From positions 1 through 34,161 of the forward strand of contig JAUIER010000010.1 of NCBI GenBank assembly GCA_030429765.1: 34,161 nt of DNA, in the 5' to 3' direction. The translations under genes and the position numbers were made by a program. The stretch's first letter is position 1, and every line of letters begins with the position of its first letter. The stretch comes from a bacterium. GTDB taxonomy: Bacteria; Omnitrophota; Gorgyraeia; Zapsychrales; Zapsychraceae. This document shows positions 22,832-30,588 of this stretch, in pieces. The notes below the pieces were generated by a model. That model searched no databases, was not told the DNA's origin, and was given only the letters and a program-made list of their open reading frames with translations.

Positions 22832-23272
22832 ATGGATCGCAAAGATTTTGCCGGAGAAGTGACCTCAAATGTGCTTGAGGAAAGTGAACAATTAATCATC
22901 GATTTTGAAAAATTACGGAAGATTGCTCAGGGTCAGGAGGCCGTGGTTCCTGTGGTCGTTCAGGATGCTGAATCCAAAGAAGTGCTTTTAATTGGGTACG
23001 CCAATCACAAGGCGCTCAAACACACCTTGGACAATCAAGTGGCCACGTTCTGGAGTACATCGCGCAATGAATTGTGGATCAAGGGATTGACGTCGGGTGA
23101 TCAGTTGGACATCGTCGATGTCTTTGTCAATTGCGAGCAGAATTCATTGCTGTATCTGGTCAAGATGGTCGGAAAGGGATCCTGCCATACCAAGCATGCC
23201 GACGGACAGACCCGTCTGGGATGTTACTATCGACGGATCGTCGGTGATAAACTCGAATTTACCAACAAATAG
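22832..23272 (+). CDS. hisI: HisI-like phosphoribosyl-AMP cyclohydrolase, variant metal site
   Basis: The protein has 146 residues. HisI opens the purine ring of phosphoribosyl-AMP in histidine synthesis. DFEKLRKIAQGQEAVVPVVVQD, LLIGYANHKALKHTL, FWSTSRNELWIKGLTSGD and CHTKHADG are clear family motifs. The three zinc cysteines are present (Cys101, Cys118, Cys131). The usual DCDxD magnesium motif is NCEQN (100-104), so all three Asp are replaced, and the spacing between the second and third Cys is twelve instead of six residues. It is not in a his operon; its only neighbour is a dehydrogenase-like gene. It could be an active variant typical of a lineage or a paralog with another substrate. Confidence 0.8.
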   Translation: MDRKDFAGEVTSNVLEESEQLIIDFEKLRKIAQGQEAVVPVVVQDAESKEVLLIGYANHKALKHTLDNQVATFWSTSRNELWIKGLTSGDQLDIVDVFVNCEQNSLLYLVKMVGKGSCHTKHADGQTRLGCYYRRIVGDKLEFTNK

Positions 23273-23287
23273 GTCAAAGGGGATGCT

Positions 23288-24055
23288 ATGAAGAAGCCAG
23301 TCGCGTTAGTGGGAATCGGTGAAATGGGCGGGGTATTTGCCCGGGGATTATTGAAATATGGTCACCCCGTTTATCCGGTGACGCGTGATATGCAATTAGC
23401 TGATTTGCCGGACCGGCTGACGGATCTAGAGTCGATTATTGTCGCGGTGGGTGAGCGTGACCTGGCATCGGTGTTGGAACAGTTGCCGGCCCAGTGGCAT
23501 GACCGCGTGGTCCTGTTGCAGAATGAATTGCTTCCGCAGGACTGGGCCAAGTTTAAGATTGATAATCCCACTGTCATTTCCGTCTGGTTCGAAAAGAAGC
23601 AACCCAAAGATTACAAGGTTATTATTCCATCGCCGGTCTACGGGCCTAAAGCTGATTTGATCGCTCAAAGTCTGGGATCCATCAATATTTCAACGAAGGT
23701 GCTGGCCTCGTCGGACGATCTGCTTTTTGAATTAATCCTCAAGAATCTATACATTGTCACCACCAATGTCGGCGGACTGAAAGTCGGCGGCAATGTCGGT
23801 GAACTATGGGGGCAGCATCAGGATTTTGCCCGAACGCTGGCTAACGAAGTGCTGGATGTCCAGTTTGCCCTGGCCCAAAAGGAATTTGATCGGGACCGTT
23901 TGATCGGGGAGATGGTCAAGGCCTTTGAAGGTGATCTCGAACACAAATGCATGGGGCGATCTGCGCCTGCACGCCTGGAACGCGCCATCCAACAGGCCGA
24001 TCAGTTTGGATTGGACGTCCCGACCATGCGCGATATTCAAATGGCCGCCAAATAA
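23288..24055 (+). CDS. NAD(P)-binding dehydrogenase-like protein (ketopantoate reductase-like)
   Basis: The protein has 255 residues. VALVGIGEMGGVFARGLLKYGH is a Rossmann nucleotide-binding motif (GxGxxG variant with GIGEMG). The second half contains ELILKNLYIVTTNVGGL and then HKCMGRSAPARLERAIQQADQFGLDVPTM, which parallels the C-terminal domain of ketopantoate reductase/6-phosphogluconate dehydrogenase-like enzymes (catalytic Lys in the ILKN segment, Lys152). The canonical glutamate and other substrate residues of PanE cannot be confirmed by eye. It starts 15 bp after hisI with AAAGGGG six bases upstream, so both genes are probably cotranscribed. The substrate is unknown. Confidence 0.65.
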   Translation: MKKPVALVGIGEMGGVFARGLLKYGHPVYPVTRDMQLADLPDRLTDLESIIVAVGERDLASVLEQLPAQWHDRVVLLQNELLPQDWAKFKIDNPTVISVWFEKKQPKDYKVIIPSPVYGPKADLIAQSLGSINISTKVLASSDDLLFELILKNLYIVTTNVGGLKVGGNVGELWGQHQDFARTLANEVLDVQFALAQKEFDRDRLIGEMVKAFEGDLEHKCMGRSAPARLERAIQQADQFGLDVPTMRDIQMAAK

Positions 24056-24299: not shown

Positions 24300-25835
24300 A
24301 TGCGAGCAGCCATTATCGATATCGGATCACATTCCACCAAGCTCTTCATCGCGGAAGATGATGGGGAGAACCTCAAAATTATTGAAACCCTCCGTAATGC
24401 CAATGACTTAGGAAAAAGCTCTTTCTATAAGGGAAAAATCGCCCAGGACGTATTCAATGACGTTATCGAGGTCTTAAACCGGTACAAACAAGTACTTGAG
24501 GGTTATGATATCGAAGTCGTCCGGGTGATTGCCACAACGGCGGTGCGCGAGGCGATCAACCGGAATATTTTTATTGACACCGTCCGGCGAATGACCGGGT
24601 TTGAGATTGAGGTGTTGAGTGTGGGGGATGTGGTTTATTACATCGACGCCTTTATCTCCTATAAGCTGAACAAGACCTATCCGATTAACGAAAAAAATCT
24701 ACTGATTGTTGAGCTCGGTGGCGGCAGTATGGATATTTCTGTGCTGGAAAAAGGTTTTGCCGTGGCCAGTTTCGGAATGCCGTTGGGAACTCTACGGCTC
24801 TATCAATTCAAGAACCGTATAGACGGCAGTAAACGCGAGGTGTATCAGGCGCTCGAGGAATATGTTGAGAATGAGATCATCAATACCAAACGTTCATTTC
24901 CAGACATCAAGATTGACGATATCATCCTGATTGATGAGAGCCATTCCATGGCCATTCACAAAATCCTTCCTGACAACAAGCGGGACGGAAATTTCTTTAA
25001 GTTCCGTTATAGCGAATCCGAAGAGTTAGTGCGTAAAATTCAGACGCACAAGATGGAGGATATTTCGGAGATGTTCGATGTGCCGCTGGAAATGTCGGAC
25101 TCCATCGACGGGTACGCGATTATTCTCAATAAGTTATTTAAGCTGGTCAAGAAACGTTCGATTTTTATCCTCGAAACTTCGTTGGCCGAGGCGCTGCTGG
25201 CCAATACCATTTTCGGAACAGATCTATCGCAAAAGTACCGCAAAGAAAACCAGTTGATCTCGGTGGCAAGATTTTTGTGTCACAAGTATGACCTGGATAT
25301 TAAACACACCCGTCATGTGGCCTTTTTATCAGAAGAGCTTTTTCGGCAGCTCAAGGATCTGTTGGGGCTGGAAGAGGACCAGTTGCTGTATCTAACGCTG
25401 GCCGCTTATCTCCATAATATCGGATTATTTATCAATAATCGTTCGCATCACAAACATACCGAGTACATCATTAATTCGTTGAGTCTTTTCAGGCTTCAGC
25501 CCGAGGAGATCAAGATGATCGCGTCCATCGCTCGATATCACCGTAAGGCGACGCCGCAGAAATCACATTACAATTATGTGAGTTTATCGTCAGACGAACA
25601 GCTCGTGGTGCAGAAGCTGAGCTCGATTCTGCGGATTGCCAATGCCCTGGATGCGTCGCATAAACAAAAAATCAAACAGATTGATGTTCAGATGAAAAAG
25701 CGCGGGCTCATCACGCTGGACGTGTACACGCAGGACAGCATCGCGCTCGAACGGACATCATTTCTCGATCGCAAACGTTTCTTTGAAGAAATATCCGGAA
25801 AAAGTATCAATCTTAAAGTCAAACCAATCGCCTAG
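24300..25835 (+). CDS. ppx: Exopolyphosphatase/GppA-family phosphatase with C-terminal HD domain
   Basis: The protein has 511 residues. The N-terminal actin-like half has IDIGSHSTKLFI, TTAVREAINRNIF and ELGGGSMDISVLEKG, the phosphate-binding loops of Ppx/GppA. The C-terminal half is an HD-type module: RHVAFLSEELF, YLHNIG (His372-Asn373), HHKHTEYII and IARYHRKATPQKSH. As in E. coli Ppx (LHE), the canonical HD pair is changed. The enzyme hydrolyses polyphosphate or pppGpp in the cytosol. The next gene, 9 bp away, is ppk1, a common pairing. The C-terminal module is closely similar to that of the metallophosphoesterase fusion two genes downstream. Confidence 0.93.
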   Translation: MRAAIIDIGSHSTKLFIAEDDGENLKIIETLRNANDLGKSSFYKGKIAQDVFNDVIEVLNRYKQVLEGYDIEVVRVIATTAVREAINRNIFIDTVRRMTGFEIEVLSVGDVVYYIDAFISYKLNKTYPINEKNLLIVELGGGSMDISVLEKGFAVASFGMPLGTLRLYQFKNRIDGSKREVYQALEEYVENEIINTKRSFPDIKIDDIILIDESHSMAIHKILPDNKRDGNFFKFRYSESEELVRKIQTHKMEDISEMFDVPLEMSDSIDGYAIILNKLFKLVKKRSIFILETSLAEALLANTIFGTDLSQKYRKENQLISVARFLCHKYDLDIKHTRHVAFLSEELFRQLKDLLGLEEDQLLYLTLAAYLHNIGLFINNRSHHKHTEYIINSLSLFRLQPEEIKMIASIARYHRKATPQKSHYNYVSLSSDEQLVVQKLSSILRIANALDASHKQKIKQIDVQMKKRGLITLDVYTQDSIALERTSFLDRKRFFEEISGKSINLKVKPIA

Positions 25836-25844
25836 AAAGTACAT

Positions 25845-27857
25845 ATGGAAGCCAAAGATAAATACATTCCCCGGGACCTCAGCTGGCTGCTCTTTAATGA
25901 GCGCGTTTTGAATGAGGCGACGGAACCGCAAAACCCTCTGCTGGAACAGGCCAAGTTTCTGGCCATTTTTGTTAGCAATCTAGACGAGTTCTACGCGGTG
26001 CGTGTGGCCAGTCTGAAGAACAGAATTGAATCTCAGGTCAACGATACGCTTTATGGTTACTCGGCGACACAATTGCTGGAACATATCCTTGAGTACTCCC
26101 AAAATCTGATCAAGCAATTGTATCAAACATATCAGAAGAACATTCTCAAGCAGTTTGAGACGCACAAAATTTATATCCGGAAATGTACCGACCTCAGAAA
26201 AGAACAGGCGAAATTTGTCGAGGATTATTTTCAGACGACGCTGTACCCGATCGTTACGCCGCTGGCCGTGGATCCGGGGCATCCGTTCCCGGTACTGCCG
26301 TCAAAAACCCTGGCGTTCGCGGTCCATGTTAAGCGAAAGGGCGAGGAGAATCTGGCGATTGTTCCGATCCCGAAAAACATTCCGCGCCTGCTGCGAGTGC
26401 CGTCGGCCCGGGATGAATATTGTTTTGTGCTGATTGAAGAGGTGATCCGTGTGTATCTCGAACAGTTTTTTAAAGGATATGAATTGGTGGATTTTTCATT
26501 GTTCCGTGTTGTCCGGGACAGCGAGTTGGAAGACGGAGATGCATCGACGCCGGATCTGTTGAAAACGATTGATCGGCAGGTCAAAAAACGCTCCTTTGCC
26601 AAACCGGTATATCTGGAAGTGGAACGCAAATGCAGTCCGGACCTGTTGCTGATGCTGTGCGACGGTCTTAAATTTGTGATGGACGAGGTTACCGAAATTG
26701 ACAGCGATTTTGATCTGACGTTTCTATTTGAACTATTTGGTCATATTGATAATTCCAAACTCAAGTATCCAAGCTTCACGCCGGCCACGGTGGAATACGA
26801 GGATATCTTTGAGCACATCAAACAGCAGGACTTTCTGATCCACATGCCGTTTCAGTCGTTTGACCCGACAGTGGATCTGGTCCAGTCGGCAGCGCGCGAT
26901 CCGAATGTGCTGGCCATCAAGATGACGCTTTACCGGACCGACAAGGGATCGGCTATCATTGACGCGCTCAAAGAGGCGGCGGTTAACGGCAAGCAGGTCA
27001 CGACGCTCGTCGAGATCAAGGCCCGGTTTGACGAGGAAAATAATATTCGCTGGACGCGCCAGCTTGAAGAAGCCGGCTGTCATGTGATCTATGGTATTCC
27101 CGGACTGAAAGTCCATTCCAAAATGACACTGGTGGTGCGTGAAGAGGAAGGCCGTATCCAGCGTTATGTTCATTTGTCGACCGGCAATTACAACCAGAAG
27201 ACTTCTGAGATTTATACGGACGTCGGTTATTTTACGGTGAACGAAGACATTGCCCGTGATATTTCCGAACTGTTCAATGTGATCACCGGTTATTCGCAAC
27301 CCACACATTGGGATCAGATCATCGCGGCGCCGGACAAGATGCGGGATTACACGATGGCCTTGATCGAGCGGGAGATCAAATTCCAGAAGAAGTACAAAAA
27401 CGGACATATTTTCGCAAAGTTCAATTCGTTAGAAGATCTCAAGATCATTGATAAACTGTATGAGGCCTCTCAGGCAGGCGTCAAGATCAAGTTGATCGTC
27501 CGCGGCATCTGCTGTCTGATCCCGGGGATTGAGGGGCTCAGTGAGAACATCGAGGTCAAGAGTGTCGTCGGCAGGTTTCTCGAGCACACCCGGATATTTA
27601 TCTACAATAATAATGACAACCCGCGTGTGTTTCTAAGCTCAGCCGATTGGATGAAACGTAATTTTGACCGGCGGATCGAAATCCTATTCGAAGTCAATAA
27701 GGCGGATATCAAGGACCATCTCCGAAAGATCATGAATTTGTATTGGAAGGACGTGCACAATTCCTGGGAGCTGAATTCTGTCGGTGAGTACATGAAGCTG
27801 GAAAGTAAAGGCAAGGCCTACAATATTCAGCAGGATCTGATTGAGCGCTACGCATAG
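25845..27857 (+). CDS. ppk1: Polyphosphate kinase 1
   Basis: The protein has 670 residues, close to the usual size. The N domain begins RDLSWLLFNERVLNEA, and LAIFVSNLDEFYAVRVASL follows. The catalytic core has His424 in LKVHSKM, the site of autophosphorylation, and a second His581 in FLEHTRIFIY. Their spacing (157 residues) is the same as His435 and His592 of E. coli PPK1. STGNYNQKTSEIYTDVGYFT and GICCLIPGIEGLSENI are conserved. It builds polyphosphate from ATP, reversibly. It starts 9 bp after ppx and is followed 29 bp later by the metallophosphoesterase-HD gene. The ribosome site is weak (AGAAAG). Confidence 0.97.
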   Translation: MEAKDKYIPRDLSWLLFNERVLNEATEPQNPLLEQAKFLAIFVSNLDEFYAVRVASLKNRIESQVNDTLYGYSATQLLEHILEYSQNLIKQLYQTYQKNILKQFETHKIYIRKCTDLRKEQAKFVEDYFQTTLYPIVTPLAVDPGHPFPVLPSKTLAFAVHVKRKGEENLAIVPIPKNIPRLLRVPSARDEYCFVLIEEVIRVYLEQFFKGYELVDFSLFRVVRDSELEDGDASTPDLLKTIDRQVKKRSFAKPVYLEVERKCSPDLLLMLCDGLKFVMDEVTEIDSDFDLTFLFELFGHIDNSKLKYPSFTPATVEYEDIFEHIKQQDFLIHMPFQSFDPTVDLVQSAARDPNVLAIKMTLYRTDKGSAIIDALKEAAVNGKQVTTLVEIKARFDEENNIRWTRQLEEAGCHVIYGIPGLKVHSKMTLVVREEEGRIQRYVHLSTGNYNQKTSEIYTDVGYFTVNEDIARDISELFNVITGYSQPTHWDQIIAAPDKMRDYTMALIEREIKFQKKYKNGHIFAKFNSLEDLKIIDKLYEASQAGVKIKLIVRGICCLIPGIEGLSENIEVKSVVGRFLEHTRIFIYNNNDNPRVFLSSADWMKRNFDRRIEILFEVNKADIKDHLRKIMNLYWKDVHNSWELNSVGEYMKLESKGKAYNIQQDLIERYA

Positions 27858-27886: not shown

Positions 27887-29233
27887 ATGGCGGCAGCAAA
27901 TACTAAATCCATAGCCGTGATCGCCGACGCGCATGCCAATTTGCCGGCGTTACAGGCCGTTCTTAAAGACATTCGCCGTCGGGACATTGATCAGGTTTGG
28001 TACCTCGGAGATTTTCTGGGGTACGGGGCCTTTCCCAATGAAGTGGTCGATGAGATCCGATCCAATGGCGATCGCGTCATTGTCGGGAATCATGATCTCA
28101 GTGTCATCCATATCCCGGATGAACGGCTGAAGCGGTTACAGAGAAAGAATTATTCGAAGTTTCTTTCATTTGGCTGGACACAGCGCAATTTGAGTCCAGC
28201 GAACCGGTCCTATTTGCTGGCATTGCCGCCGCAATTGAAAGTCCGTGCGCTGGAAACTGACTTTCTGCTGGTGCATGGGAGTCCGGCGCGGATCGACGAG
28301 CCCTTGACCCGTTCAATGCCGGATCTTCGGTTCGAGGAGTTAGCCGATCAGGTCAGAGCCGATGTGGTGTTATGCGGGCATACGCATGTGTATTTTGACC
28401 GGAGTCACAATGACGTTCGTTTTATCAATCCGGGAAGCGTCGGGCGTCCGTTCGACGGTGATCCCCGGGCGTCATACGCGGTGCTGACCCGGGTTAACAG
28501 GGAAATTCAATCGGAAAATATCAGGGTTAAATATAACGTTCAACGAGCTGTTCAAGCAATGCAACAACGGGGGTTTGCCGACGATATGATTCAATCTATA
28601 GCCGAAGGACAAAGCCTGGACACGATTCAGGCCCAGAAGGATTTAGAAAACAAACGCATGCAACTAATAACCGCGGCCATGGAATTGGCCATCGCTTGCT
28701 GTTATGAAAAAAAACATGCGCATCATGTCACCGATTTAAGTATGCGATTGTTCGATGAATTAGAGGAGCTGCATGGTTTAAACGATCATGACCGAATGCT
28801 GCTCGAGGCGGCGGCGATTCTGCATGATATCGGTTGGATCAGCGGACGCTCCAAGCATCATAAAACATCGCGCAACATTATCCTGGCCGATACGTTGCTG
28901 CCGTTATCCAGAGAGGACCGGATCATGGTGGCCTTAATCGCGCGTTATCATCGACGGGCGGCCCCGCAGGATTCACATCGGTATTATCGGAATTTGTCGG
29001 AGATGAATAAGGGCCGGGTTCGGAAAATGGCCGGACTGTTGCGAATCGCGGACGGTCTGGATCGAAGGCACATCAGCGCGGTCAAAGATTTAACGTGCAT
29101 GGCGAGTGATGATCGGGTGGTCATTCACGTGGTTTCCGATGGTTTGGGCTTGTGGGAGAAGAACGCGGCATTGAAAAAATCTGACGTGTTTTGTGCTGTC
29201 ATGAACCGGACGTTGAATATCAAAGTCAATTAA
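27887..29233 (+). CDS. Metallophosphoesterase-HD fusion protein in the polyphosphate cluster
   Basis: The protein has 448 residues in two domains. Residues 8 to about 205 form a calcineurin-like phosphoesterase of the YfcE/MJ0936 type: Asp14 and His16 (IADAHAN), Asp42 (YLGDFLGYG), Asn68-His69 (GNHD), His130 (LLVHGSP), and His165 and His167 (CGHTHV). All metal ligands look intact. A helical linker (about 215-255) follows. Residues 255-448 form an HD domain like the C-terminal half of Ppx: His313-Asp314 in ILHDIG, His324-His325 in SKHHKTS and IARYHRRAAPQDSH at 351-364. Unlike the neighbouring Ppx, it has a full HD pair. I infer a bifunctional phosphohydrolase acting on polyphosphate, nucleotide second messengers or related compounds. 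The ribosome site is poor. The architecture is not one I recognise. Confidence 0.85.
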   Translation: MAAANTKSIAVIADAHANLPALQAVLKDIRRRDIDQVWYLGDFLGYGAFPNEVVDEIRSNGDRVIVGNHDLSVIHIPDERLKRLQRKNYSKFLSFGWTQRNLSPANRSYLLALPPQLKVRALETDFLLVHGSPARIDEPLTRSMPDLRFEELADQVRADVVLCGHTHVYFDRSHNDVRFINPGSVGRPFDGDPRASYAVLTRVNREIQSENIRVKYNVQRAVQAMQQRGFADDMIQSIAEGQSLDTIQAQKDLENKRMQLITAAMELAIACCYEKKHAHHVTDLSMRLFDELEELHGLNDHDRMLLEAAAILHDIGWISGRSKHHKTSRNIILADTLLPLSREDRIMVALIARYHRRAAPQDSHRYYRNLSEMNKGRVRKMAGLLRIADGLDRRHISAVKDLTCMASDDRVVIHVVSDGLGLWEKNAALKKSDVFCAVMNRTLNIKVN

Positions 29234-29244
29234 AAGGAAATACT

Positions 29245-30588
29245 ATGGCAAAGAAAATATATTGTGGCGTGGATGTCGGCGGAACCAAGGTCCTGGCCGG
29301 TTTGGTGGACTCATCCGGACAGGTGATCAGTCGAAAGAAGATCGCCACCCCGCAAAAGGCCTCCGCGACTCGAATTTACAATCAGATCAGGCAGTTAATT
29401 ACCGATTTGCTGAAAGAAAGCGGCGTGGATGCGGATTCGGTGCGCGGGATCGGCATGGGCATTCCGGGTATCGTATTGCCGAATCAGATCGATATTCTGC
29501 GCGCGCCGAATATCAATCTGGCGAATTTCCCCTTGGCTGAGCGTTTGTCCAAACATTTTGGATTGAAGGTGGTGCTCGGTAATGATGTTAATCTGGGACT
29601 ACTGGGAGAGATGTGGCTCGGTATTGGCAAAGGTCATGAGAACATGGTGGGGCTGTTTCCCGGGACGGGCGTCGGCGGAGCGATTATCCTCAACGGAAAG
29701 TTGGTGCTTGGGGCGCAGGGGGCGGCCGGCGAGTTGGGGCATGTGATCGTCGAACAAGGAAGCTCCAAGAGCAGTGCCGGATTGTACGGCACGCTTGAGG
29801 CGCTGGCCTCAAGACGCGCGGTTGAACGCGAGATCCGGGCCGCCATGAAAAATGGCCACAAATCTGTGGTGACTAAATATCTGAGCCGGCCTTCCGATGT
29901 CATCAAGAGCAAGATGATTCTCAAGGCGTTGGAGAAAAAAGATCCCGTAGTTGTGAAGGTGATCAATGAAGTTTGTGTGACGCTGGCGAATGCCTGTATA
30001 TCGATGCGTCATGCGCTAAATCCGGATTTGATTGTCCTGGGCGGCGGGCTGATCGAGGCTTGCGGAAAGTACATGCTGCCGCGAATTCGGCGCCGTTGTA
30101 ACGCGAGCCCATTCTTGAAAGGTATCGACAATTGTAAGATTGTACCGTCACAATTGGCGGATGATGCGGTAATGATCGGGGCGGTGGCGCTTCTTAAGCA
30201 GGAACTCAAGAAGAAATCCACCCTGAAAAGCCGCCGCTATCCCATTGTCCAGCTGCAACGCGGAAATAAAATCGTGATTGATGATAAAACGATCAAGACA
30301 GATTTTTATATCGGTCCCGCGGGGCGTATCCGGGCGGTGGATTCCAGCACGGCTTTCAAGATCTATGTCCAGAAAAAGACGCTCACCGAGAAAATTCTGA
30401 AGAAATTCTGCAAAAAAAGCACCGACGTCCTGATCGTGGCCAAGGGGACCAAGGCATTGCGCCTTTCGCAGGACGCCAAGGATTTTCTCGTTGAAAATTC
30501 CATCGAATGCACGATTTTACCGATCCGCGATGCCATCCATGCGTACAGCACGGTGAACAAGGTCAAGGCCTTGTTTGTATCGCAGTAG
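29245..30588 (+). CDS. ROK-family kinase fused to an Mth938-like domain
   Basis: The protein has 447 residues from the ATG at 29245 (AAAAGGAAA upstream; a longer frame begins inside the previous gene). Residues 1-320 are a ROK sugar kinase: DVGGTKVLAGLVD, GIGMGIPGIV, Asn113-Asp114 in GNDVN (catalytic base), GTGVGGAII and LIVLGGGLI. After GELGHV (His166) the usual zinc motif CxCGxxGCxE is absent: the stretch GSSKSSAGLYGTLE has no cysteine. Residues about 331-445 match the Mth938/DUF498 fold: IVIDDKTIKTDFYIGPAGRI, DVLIVAKGTKALRLSQDAKDFL, CTILPIRDAIHAYSTVNKVKALF. Mth938 domains have no known enzymatic role. It is probably glucokinase-like by family, but with a missing structural zinc the substrate is uncertain. 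Confidence 0.85.
   Translation: MAKKIYCGVDVGGTKVLAGLVDSSGQVISRKKIATPQKASATRIYNQIRQLITDLLKESGVDADSVRGIGMGIPGIVLPNQIDILRAPNINLANFPLAERLSKHFGLKVVLGNDVNLGLLGEMWLGIGKGHENMVGLFPGTGVGGAIILNGKLVLGAQGAAGELGHVIVEQGSSKSSAGLYGTLEALASRRAVEREIRAAMKNGHKSVVTKYLSRPSDVIKSKMILKALEKKDPVVVKVINEVCVTLANACISMRHALNPDLIVLGGGLIEACGKYMLPRIRRRCNASPFLKGIDNCKIVPSQLADDAVMIGAVALLKQELKKKSTLKSRRYPIVQLQRGNKIVIDDKTIKTDFYIGPAGRIRAVDSSTAFKIYVQKKTLTEKILKKFCKKSTDVLIVAKGTKALRLSQDAKDFLVENSIECTILPIRDAIHAYSTVNKVKALFVSQ

Follow-up and report, generated by a model that had tools for sequence, protein, structure and literature searches.

The window, a 34,161-nucleotide stretch covering positions 1 to 34,161 of contig JAUIER010000010.1 from an Omnitrophota assembly (GCA_030429765.1), contains a cluster of polyphosphate (polyP) genes, one of which codes for a calcineurin-like phosphoesterase (MPE) domain joined to an HD domain of the type seen in the exopolyphosphatase PPX. 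The genes of this cluster and the parts of the fusion protein, here termed MPE-HD, are:

24300..25835, + strand: PPX (exopolyphosphatase), its own HD domain degenerate (HN, IANALD); from the open reading frame, Pfam and alignment
25845..27857, + strand: ppk1, polyphosphate kinase 1; from Pfam and NCBIfam
27887..29233, + strand: MPE-HD fusion protein, 448 amino acids, ATG start; from the open reading frame, Pfam and NCBIfam, and an AlphaFold2 model
27908..28492, + strand: calcineurin-like phosphoesterase (MPE) domain, residues 8-202; from its ligands, GNHD with H69, and the folds 3rqz and 3qfn
28706..29134, + strand: HD domain of the PPX domain-III type, residues 274-416; H277, H313-D314 and D389 intact
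29078..29230, + strand: C-terminal strand-strand-helix-helix-strand module, residues ~398-448; from the secondary structure of the model and the Foldseek match to 3rf0
29245..30588, + strand: ROK-family sugar kinase, DUF498-like in its C-terminal part and encoded at the end of the cluster; from Pfam and NCBIfam

The ppx and ppk1 genes are 9 bp apart, and a further 29 bp separate ppk1 from the MPE-HD gene, which is followed by the ROK kinase gene; the placement directly after ppk1 reported in an earlier note on this DNA is thus correct, and linkage to ppk1 recurs in relatives. The ROK kinase probably starts at the ATG at 29245, preceded by AAAAGGAAATACT, rather than at the TTG at 29191. The ROK family takes in polyphosphate glucokinase (PMC5932413) and this kinase (29245-30588) could be one; it is kept as the last gene of the polyP clusters, its C-terminal part missing in some relatives. 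Genes for a PRA-CH-like (HisI) and a dehydrogenase-like protein (22832-24055) are also found near the polyP cluster at two related loci, L026 and L034, with the order reversed in L034. A search with Rfam found no RNA family in the window, and as PADLOC returned only chance-level matches we assign the locus no defence role.

The N-terminal half of MPE-HD matches the Pfam family Metallophos_2 over residues 9-202 (E 1.3e-24; 87.4 bits against a cut-off of 27), along with Metallophos, and in NCBIfam the protein scores 64.2 with the YfcE subfamily against a cut-off of 56.25. The full calcineurin-like ligand set of D-x-H, GD, GN[H/E], H and GHxH is present, and the corresponding residues (D14, H16, D42, N68, H130, H165 and H167) are invariant in all 14 fused homologues; H69 of the GNHD motif is His in eight of the 14 and Tyr in the other six. 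Foldseek places the solved structures 3rqz and 3qfn nearest to this half. The first, a metallophosphoesterase from Sphaerobacter, is its best match in both sequence and fold, while the second, SapH (E 8e-16, 23% identity), is the nearest characterised MPE, with an entry title that names it an asymmetric Ap4A hydrolase and phosphodiesterase.

The C-terminal half matches Ppx-GppA_III over residues 274-416 (E 1.1e-15) and the HD family (E 4.9e-5) in Pfam. It shares 35% identity over 194 residues with the C-terminal region of the adjacent PPX (E 8e-27), including the string IARYHR[K/R]A[T/A]PQ[K/D]SH, such that the paralogy of the two claimed in the earlier note is well founded. The actin-like (ASKHA) domains I-II of PPX are absent, with no match to PF02541 in Pfam, and the N-terminal half is instead the MPE domain; since the latter takes the place of the ASKHA domains, MPE-HD is not a PPX although it shares the PPX C-terminal half. 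An AlphaFold2 model of the full protein from 11 alignment rows has a mean pLDDT of 91.8 and a pTM of 0.73, so the individual domains are well modelled and their relative placement is uncertain; the HD half modelled alone reaches a pLDDT of 96.3 and a pTM of 0.92. All 28 Foldseek matches of the HD half with E <=0.001 are PPX/GppA proteins, with TM scores of ~0.7 over the whole length (0.72/0.73 against 3rf0), and in the model the HD domain and the C-terminal module form a single unit that is the predicted equivalent of the entire PPX C-terminal half. No PDB chain covers the MPE-HD architecture; matches to Mcl-1 in the PDB search (E 0.005-0.16) were taken as chance.

Given the likeness to SapH, the nearest functionally described fold of the MPE half by E-value (8e-16), we considered an Ap4A-type hydrolase, in which the MPE half would act like SapH, the HD half would serve as a second nucleotide hydrolase, and the link to polyP would be regulatory. 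An HD-domain Ap4A hydrolase, YqeK, is described (PMC11857287). However, the identity to SapH is only 23%, the HD half matches PPX with no YqeK among its 50 best structural matches in Foldseek, and the genes that stay linked to it are those for polyP, and we accordingly regard this role as distinctly unlikely.

The HD half retains a full H...HD...D set of ligands in H277, H313-D314 and D389, each invariant in the 14 fused homologues; we take D389 to be the last ligand because it corresponds to LADRLH, a motif of the RelA/SpoT hydrolase domain. The metal-site motifs are therefore complete in both halves, in line with the earlier note, and the ligands are held throughout the fused set. Comparison with 34 HD domains of PPXs encoded at these or related loci sets the last position apart: it is Asp in 14 of 14 fused and 15 of 16 free-standing HDs, whereas it is Asn in 28 of the 34 from PPX. 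In the PPX of the window the HD pair reads HN and the final Asp has become Asn (IANALD), and the site is likewise lost in most related PPXs. As the fused and free-standing HDs and the PPX HDs belong to separate clades, shared descent could account for part of the difference at D389; this caveat notwithstanding, the aligned residues show that one lineage has retained the predicted metal site and the other has lost it. Residues HHK (324-326), ARYHR (352-356) and R386 are conserved in the HD halves and the PPX HDs alike, as would be expected for a shared phosphate-binding surface, and the predicted pI of the HD half is 9.2, that of the MPE half 7.1.

The H-HD-D pattern is also that of the RelA/SpoT hydrolase domain, and the HD half is homologous to the C-terminus of GppA, both of which would fit a (p)ppGpp hydrolase that relieves alarmone inhibition of PPX; alarmones were among the substrates suggested in the earlier note. 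The RelA_SpoT synthetase domain, however, went undetected in 21 of the 23 relatives bearing the gene, some of them only 76-90% complete, as well as in the 95% complete host genome, in a search that was positive in 11 of 14 control genomes and gave two matches near the cut-off among the relatives. The lack of a detectable synthetase domain disfavours this substrate, and we hold a (p)ppGpp role to be extremely improbable. A weak RelA_SpoT match lies within an open frame of 16,007 amino acids, a giant-protein gene (L177; G001:C67:54852-55199).

We then examined the distribution of the fusion. An alignment search of 81 genomes from the order recovered the full-length form in 11, the host included, and in a translated search the 10 other full-length homologues of the order showed 37-49% identity. 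Two more relatives have either a fusion split across two contig ends (G272) or at least the MPE half (G456). In a broader contig scan the single-protein query gave no match, while an alignment query found two loci outside the phylum, one on a Phycisphaerales chromosome record of 6.5 Mb (CP070782.1) and the other in a Bathyarchaeota bin (WRCX01000020.1), an assignment that could be due to contamination. With many independent genomes carrying the fusion, an assembly artefact or chance fusion is ruled out; the joining of a calcineurin-like phosphoesterase to a Ppx-type HD domain, first read from this one gene, is thus borne out by the Pfam domains and by recurring homologues. Plasmid records gave 43 matches, none spanning 80% of the query, and the 20 matches listed cover the MPE half only.

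Consideration of gene neighborhoods revealed a persistent association with polyP genes. Among Omnitrophota loci with enough flanking sequence, ppk1 lies no more than two genes away from all 11 fused genes and from 12 of 13 free-standing HD genes, usually with a CHAD gene between them; the thirteenth free-standing gene (L066) adjoins a CHAD gene. The usual orders in relatives are ppx-ppk1-CHAD-HD-ROK, with a free-standing HD of ~200 amino acids, and ppx-ppk1-CHAD-MPE-HD-ROK. The Phycisphaerales locus has the order CHAD, MPE-HD, PPX, PPK1, and in the Bathyarchaeota bin a single 777-residue CHAD-MPE-HD protein (L098) is encoded between PPK1 and PPX; beyond it lie what we take, from their sequences, to be PPK2-, PhoU- and Pst-like genes. 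Single MPEs related to this one are neighbours of CHAD in two Anaerolineae, where a PhoU-like gene also lies close by, and of PPK1 in Electronema. By its linkage to ppk1, ppx and CHAD across lineages, MPE-HD is thus a member of polyP gene clusters. In the host genome (3.3 Mb, 95% complete), which has ppk1 and ppx, no CHAD domain was detected, so that MPE-HD here occupies the CHAD position. The CHAD domain is a polyP binder, and CHAD genes that stand alone are often part of polyP operons (PMC6537752). That polyP is the polymer concerned is best supported by this linkage across phyla and by the natural fusion to a polyP-binding domain, although linkage to polyP genes alone is no proof of substrate.

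Certain of these clusters have further features. In the two Anaerolineae, two tandem thymidylate-kinase-like P-loop genes, possibly P-loop polyP kinases, stand between the phoU-like gene and the CHAD-MPE pair (L100:5452-6871 and L101:5381-6826), and at L101:7992-9575 an MPE of the polyP-linked group is fused to a SAM hydroxide adenosyltransferase in a protein of 527 amino acids. The ppk1 of one genome (G433) is spread over two frames and the MPE match, in translation, runs through stops (L091:5999-9679), which points to a decaying cluster or to assembly errors.

A cyclic dinucleotide, c-di-AMP, was considered as a substrate as well. HD-type c-di-AMP phosphodiesterases exist, and 10 of the 11 genomes tested, the host among them, encode a diadenylate cyclase, which keeps such a role in consideration. 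Yet the host cyclase is encoded on another contig (G000:C4), the clusters examined are polyP clusters, and the HD half matches PPX/GppA only; we therefore judge it very improbable. Gene context lends support to neither Ap4A nor c-di-AMP as a substrate.

The MPE and HD components are a recurrent linked pair, fused or separate depending on the relative, and not a single invention. Neither needs the other, since many genomes with the HD gene have no MPE and G027 keeps a free-standing MPE directly after ppk1 with no HD gene; a relative from the same genus as the host (G001) has CHAD and HD, with MPE absent. In phylogenetic analysis, the Omnitrophota HD halves, the free-standing HDs and the Phycisphaerales HD form one group apart from the PPX HDs (SH-aLRT 96, or 95 with the long branches L066 and L098 included). 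The HD of one locus (L095) groups with the PPX HDs instead and has the look of a PPX gene that was split. A single clade of all fused HDs was rejected (p-AU 0.0003), whereas the fused MPEs of Omnitrophota form one group with the free-standing MPE of G027 inside it (SH-aLRT 96). One event is therefore less likely than an MPE that was repeatedly lost or re-joined, and these trees suggest an old MPE-HD partnership from which the MPE part was repeatedly split off or lost.

An alternative reading is that the MPE half is the sole enzyme and the HD half a polyP-binding anchor that holds it at granules, the HD ligands being structural. A fragment of E. coli PPX, its polyP-binding domain (PPBD, PPXc), has been used as a probe (PMC13061417, PMC9079103). 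From the name PPXc we take it to be the C-terminal half of PPX, and binding by the PPX C-terminal part would agree with the basic character of the HD half, with the retention of HHK, ARYHR and R386 in HD halves and PPX, and with the fusion of another binder, CHAD, in L098. Against this, the Asp/Asn contrast with PPX HDs at D389 is hard to explain by binding alone and free-standing HD genes exist without any MPE, leaving the anchor, in our estimate, rather unlikely.

Based on the above, we propose with moderate confidence that MPE-HD is a polyP-directed hydrolase, in which the MPE half cuts phosphoanhydride bonds and the HD half grips polyP and probably also hydrolyses. Counting against this proposal are the closeness of the MPE half to SapH, the Tyr at the GNHD His in six of the 14 fused homologues, the independent occurrence of the two halves and the lack of a CHAD gene in the host genome. 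The protein would be co-produced with the ROK kinase, PPK1 and PPX; its HD half would grip the polyP chain via the conserved basic and histidine surface (HHK, ARYHR, R386) and, its H-HD-D metal site being complete unlike those of its PPX cousins, would probably also hydrolyse chain ends or short chains. The MPE half, a two-metal phosphoesterase, would receive the chain from the HD half, and from CHAD where that occurs, and cleave phosphoanhydride bonds in it. By analogy with yeast PPN1 and PPN2 this cutting is quite possibly internal, a guess for which the support is genomic linkage. Co-expression from an operon, metal binding, the polyP substrate, the endo mode and the division of labour between the halves are what we infer from sequence, models and gene order. 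The two-step hydrolysis and the new enzyme type envisaged in the earlier note are likewise hypothetical. We further put forward, only tentatively, a stronger form in which MPE-HD is a dedicated prokaryotic endopolyphosphatase with a still catalytic HD half that trims the fragments, combining internal and terminal cleavage in one protein.

To our knowledge, bacterial polyP breakdown has been described almost wholly via PPX and PPK2. An endopolyphosphatase has been stated to be undiscovered in prokaryotes (PMC5932413, PMC12978653), a 2018 survey reporting none and a 2026 paper giving PPN1 as exclusive to eukaryotic cells, and PPNs are listed as eukaryal (PMC13318637). The conserved MPE-HD proteins found in Omnitrophota, in a Planctomycetota genome and in the Bathyarchaeota bin offer a specific and cheaply testable candidate. 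Both domains were already known and the new element is their combination in a polyP cluster, an architecture not found there in the literature searched and possibly catalogued already in domain-architecture databases. The occurrence of CHAD genes beside polyP-metabolising enzymes is related in passages of PMC6537752 (citing Iyer & Aravind 2002), which mention neither MPE-HD nor a free-standing PPX-type HD in these clusters.

Among known systems, SapH/Spr1479 (3qfn) and 3rqz have the MPE fold in common with MPE-HD at 23-30% identity, but are single-domain proteins with no HD. The yeast endopolyphosphatases PPN1, of the calcineurin-like kind, and PPN2, which is a metallophosphatase, act on polyP (PMC6973038); they are eukaryotic, and we liken them to the MPE half at the superfamily level only. 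The PPX/GppA proteins (2flo, 1u6z, 8jgo, 3rf0) share with the HD half its fold and the motifs HHK, ARYHR and LRIAxxLDxxH, whereas the full H-HD-D of the latter is replaced by HE in the PPXs of E. coli and Deinococcus, and the H. pylori PPX/GppA is without the HD pair. A PPX-type HD domain that retains the catalytic site lost by PPX thus bears on the origin of the HD domain of PPX itself.
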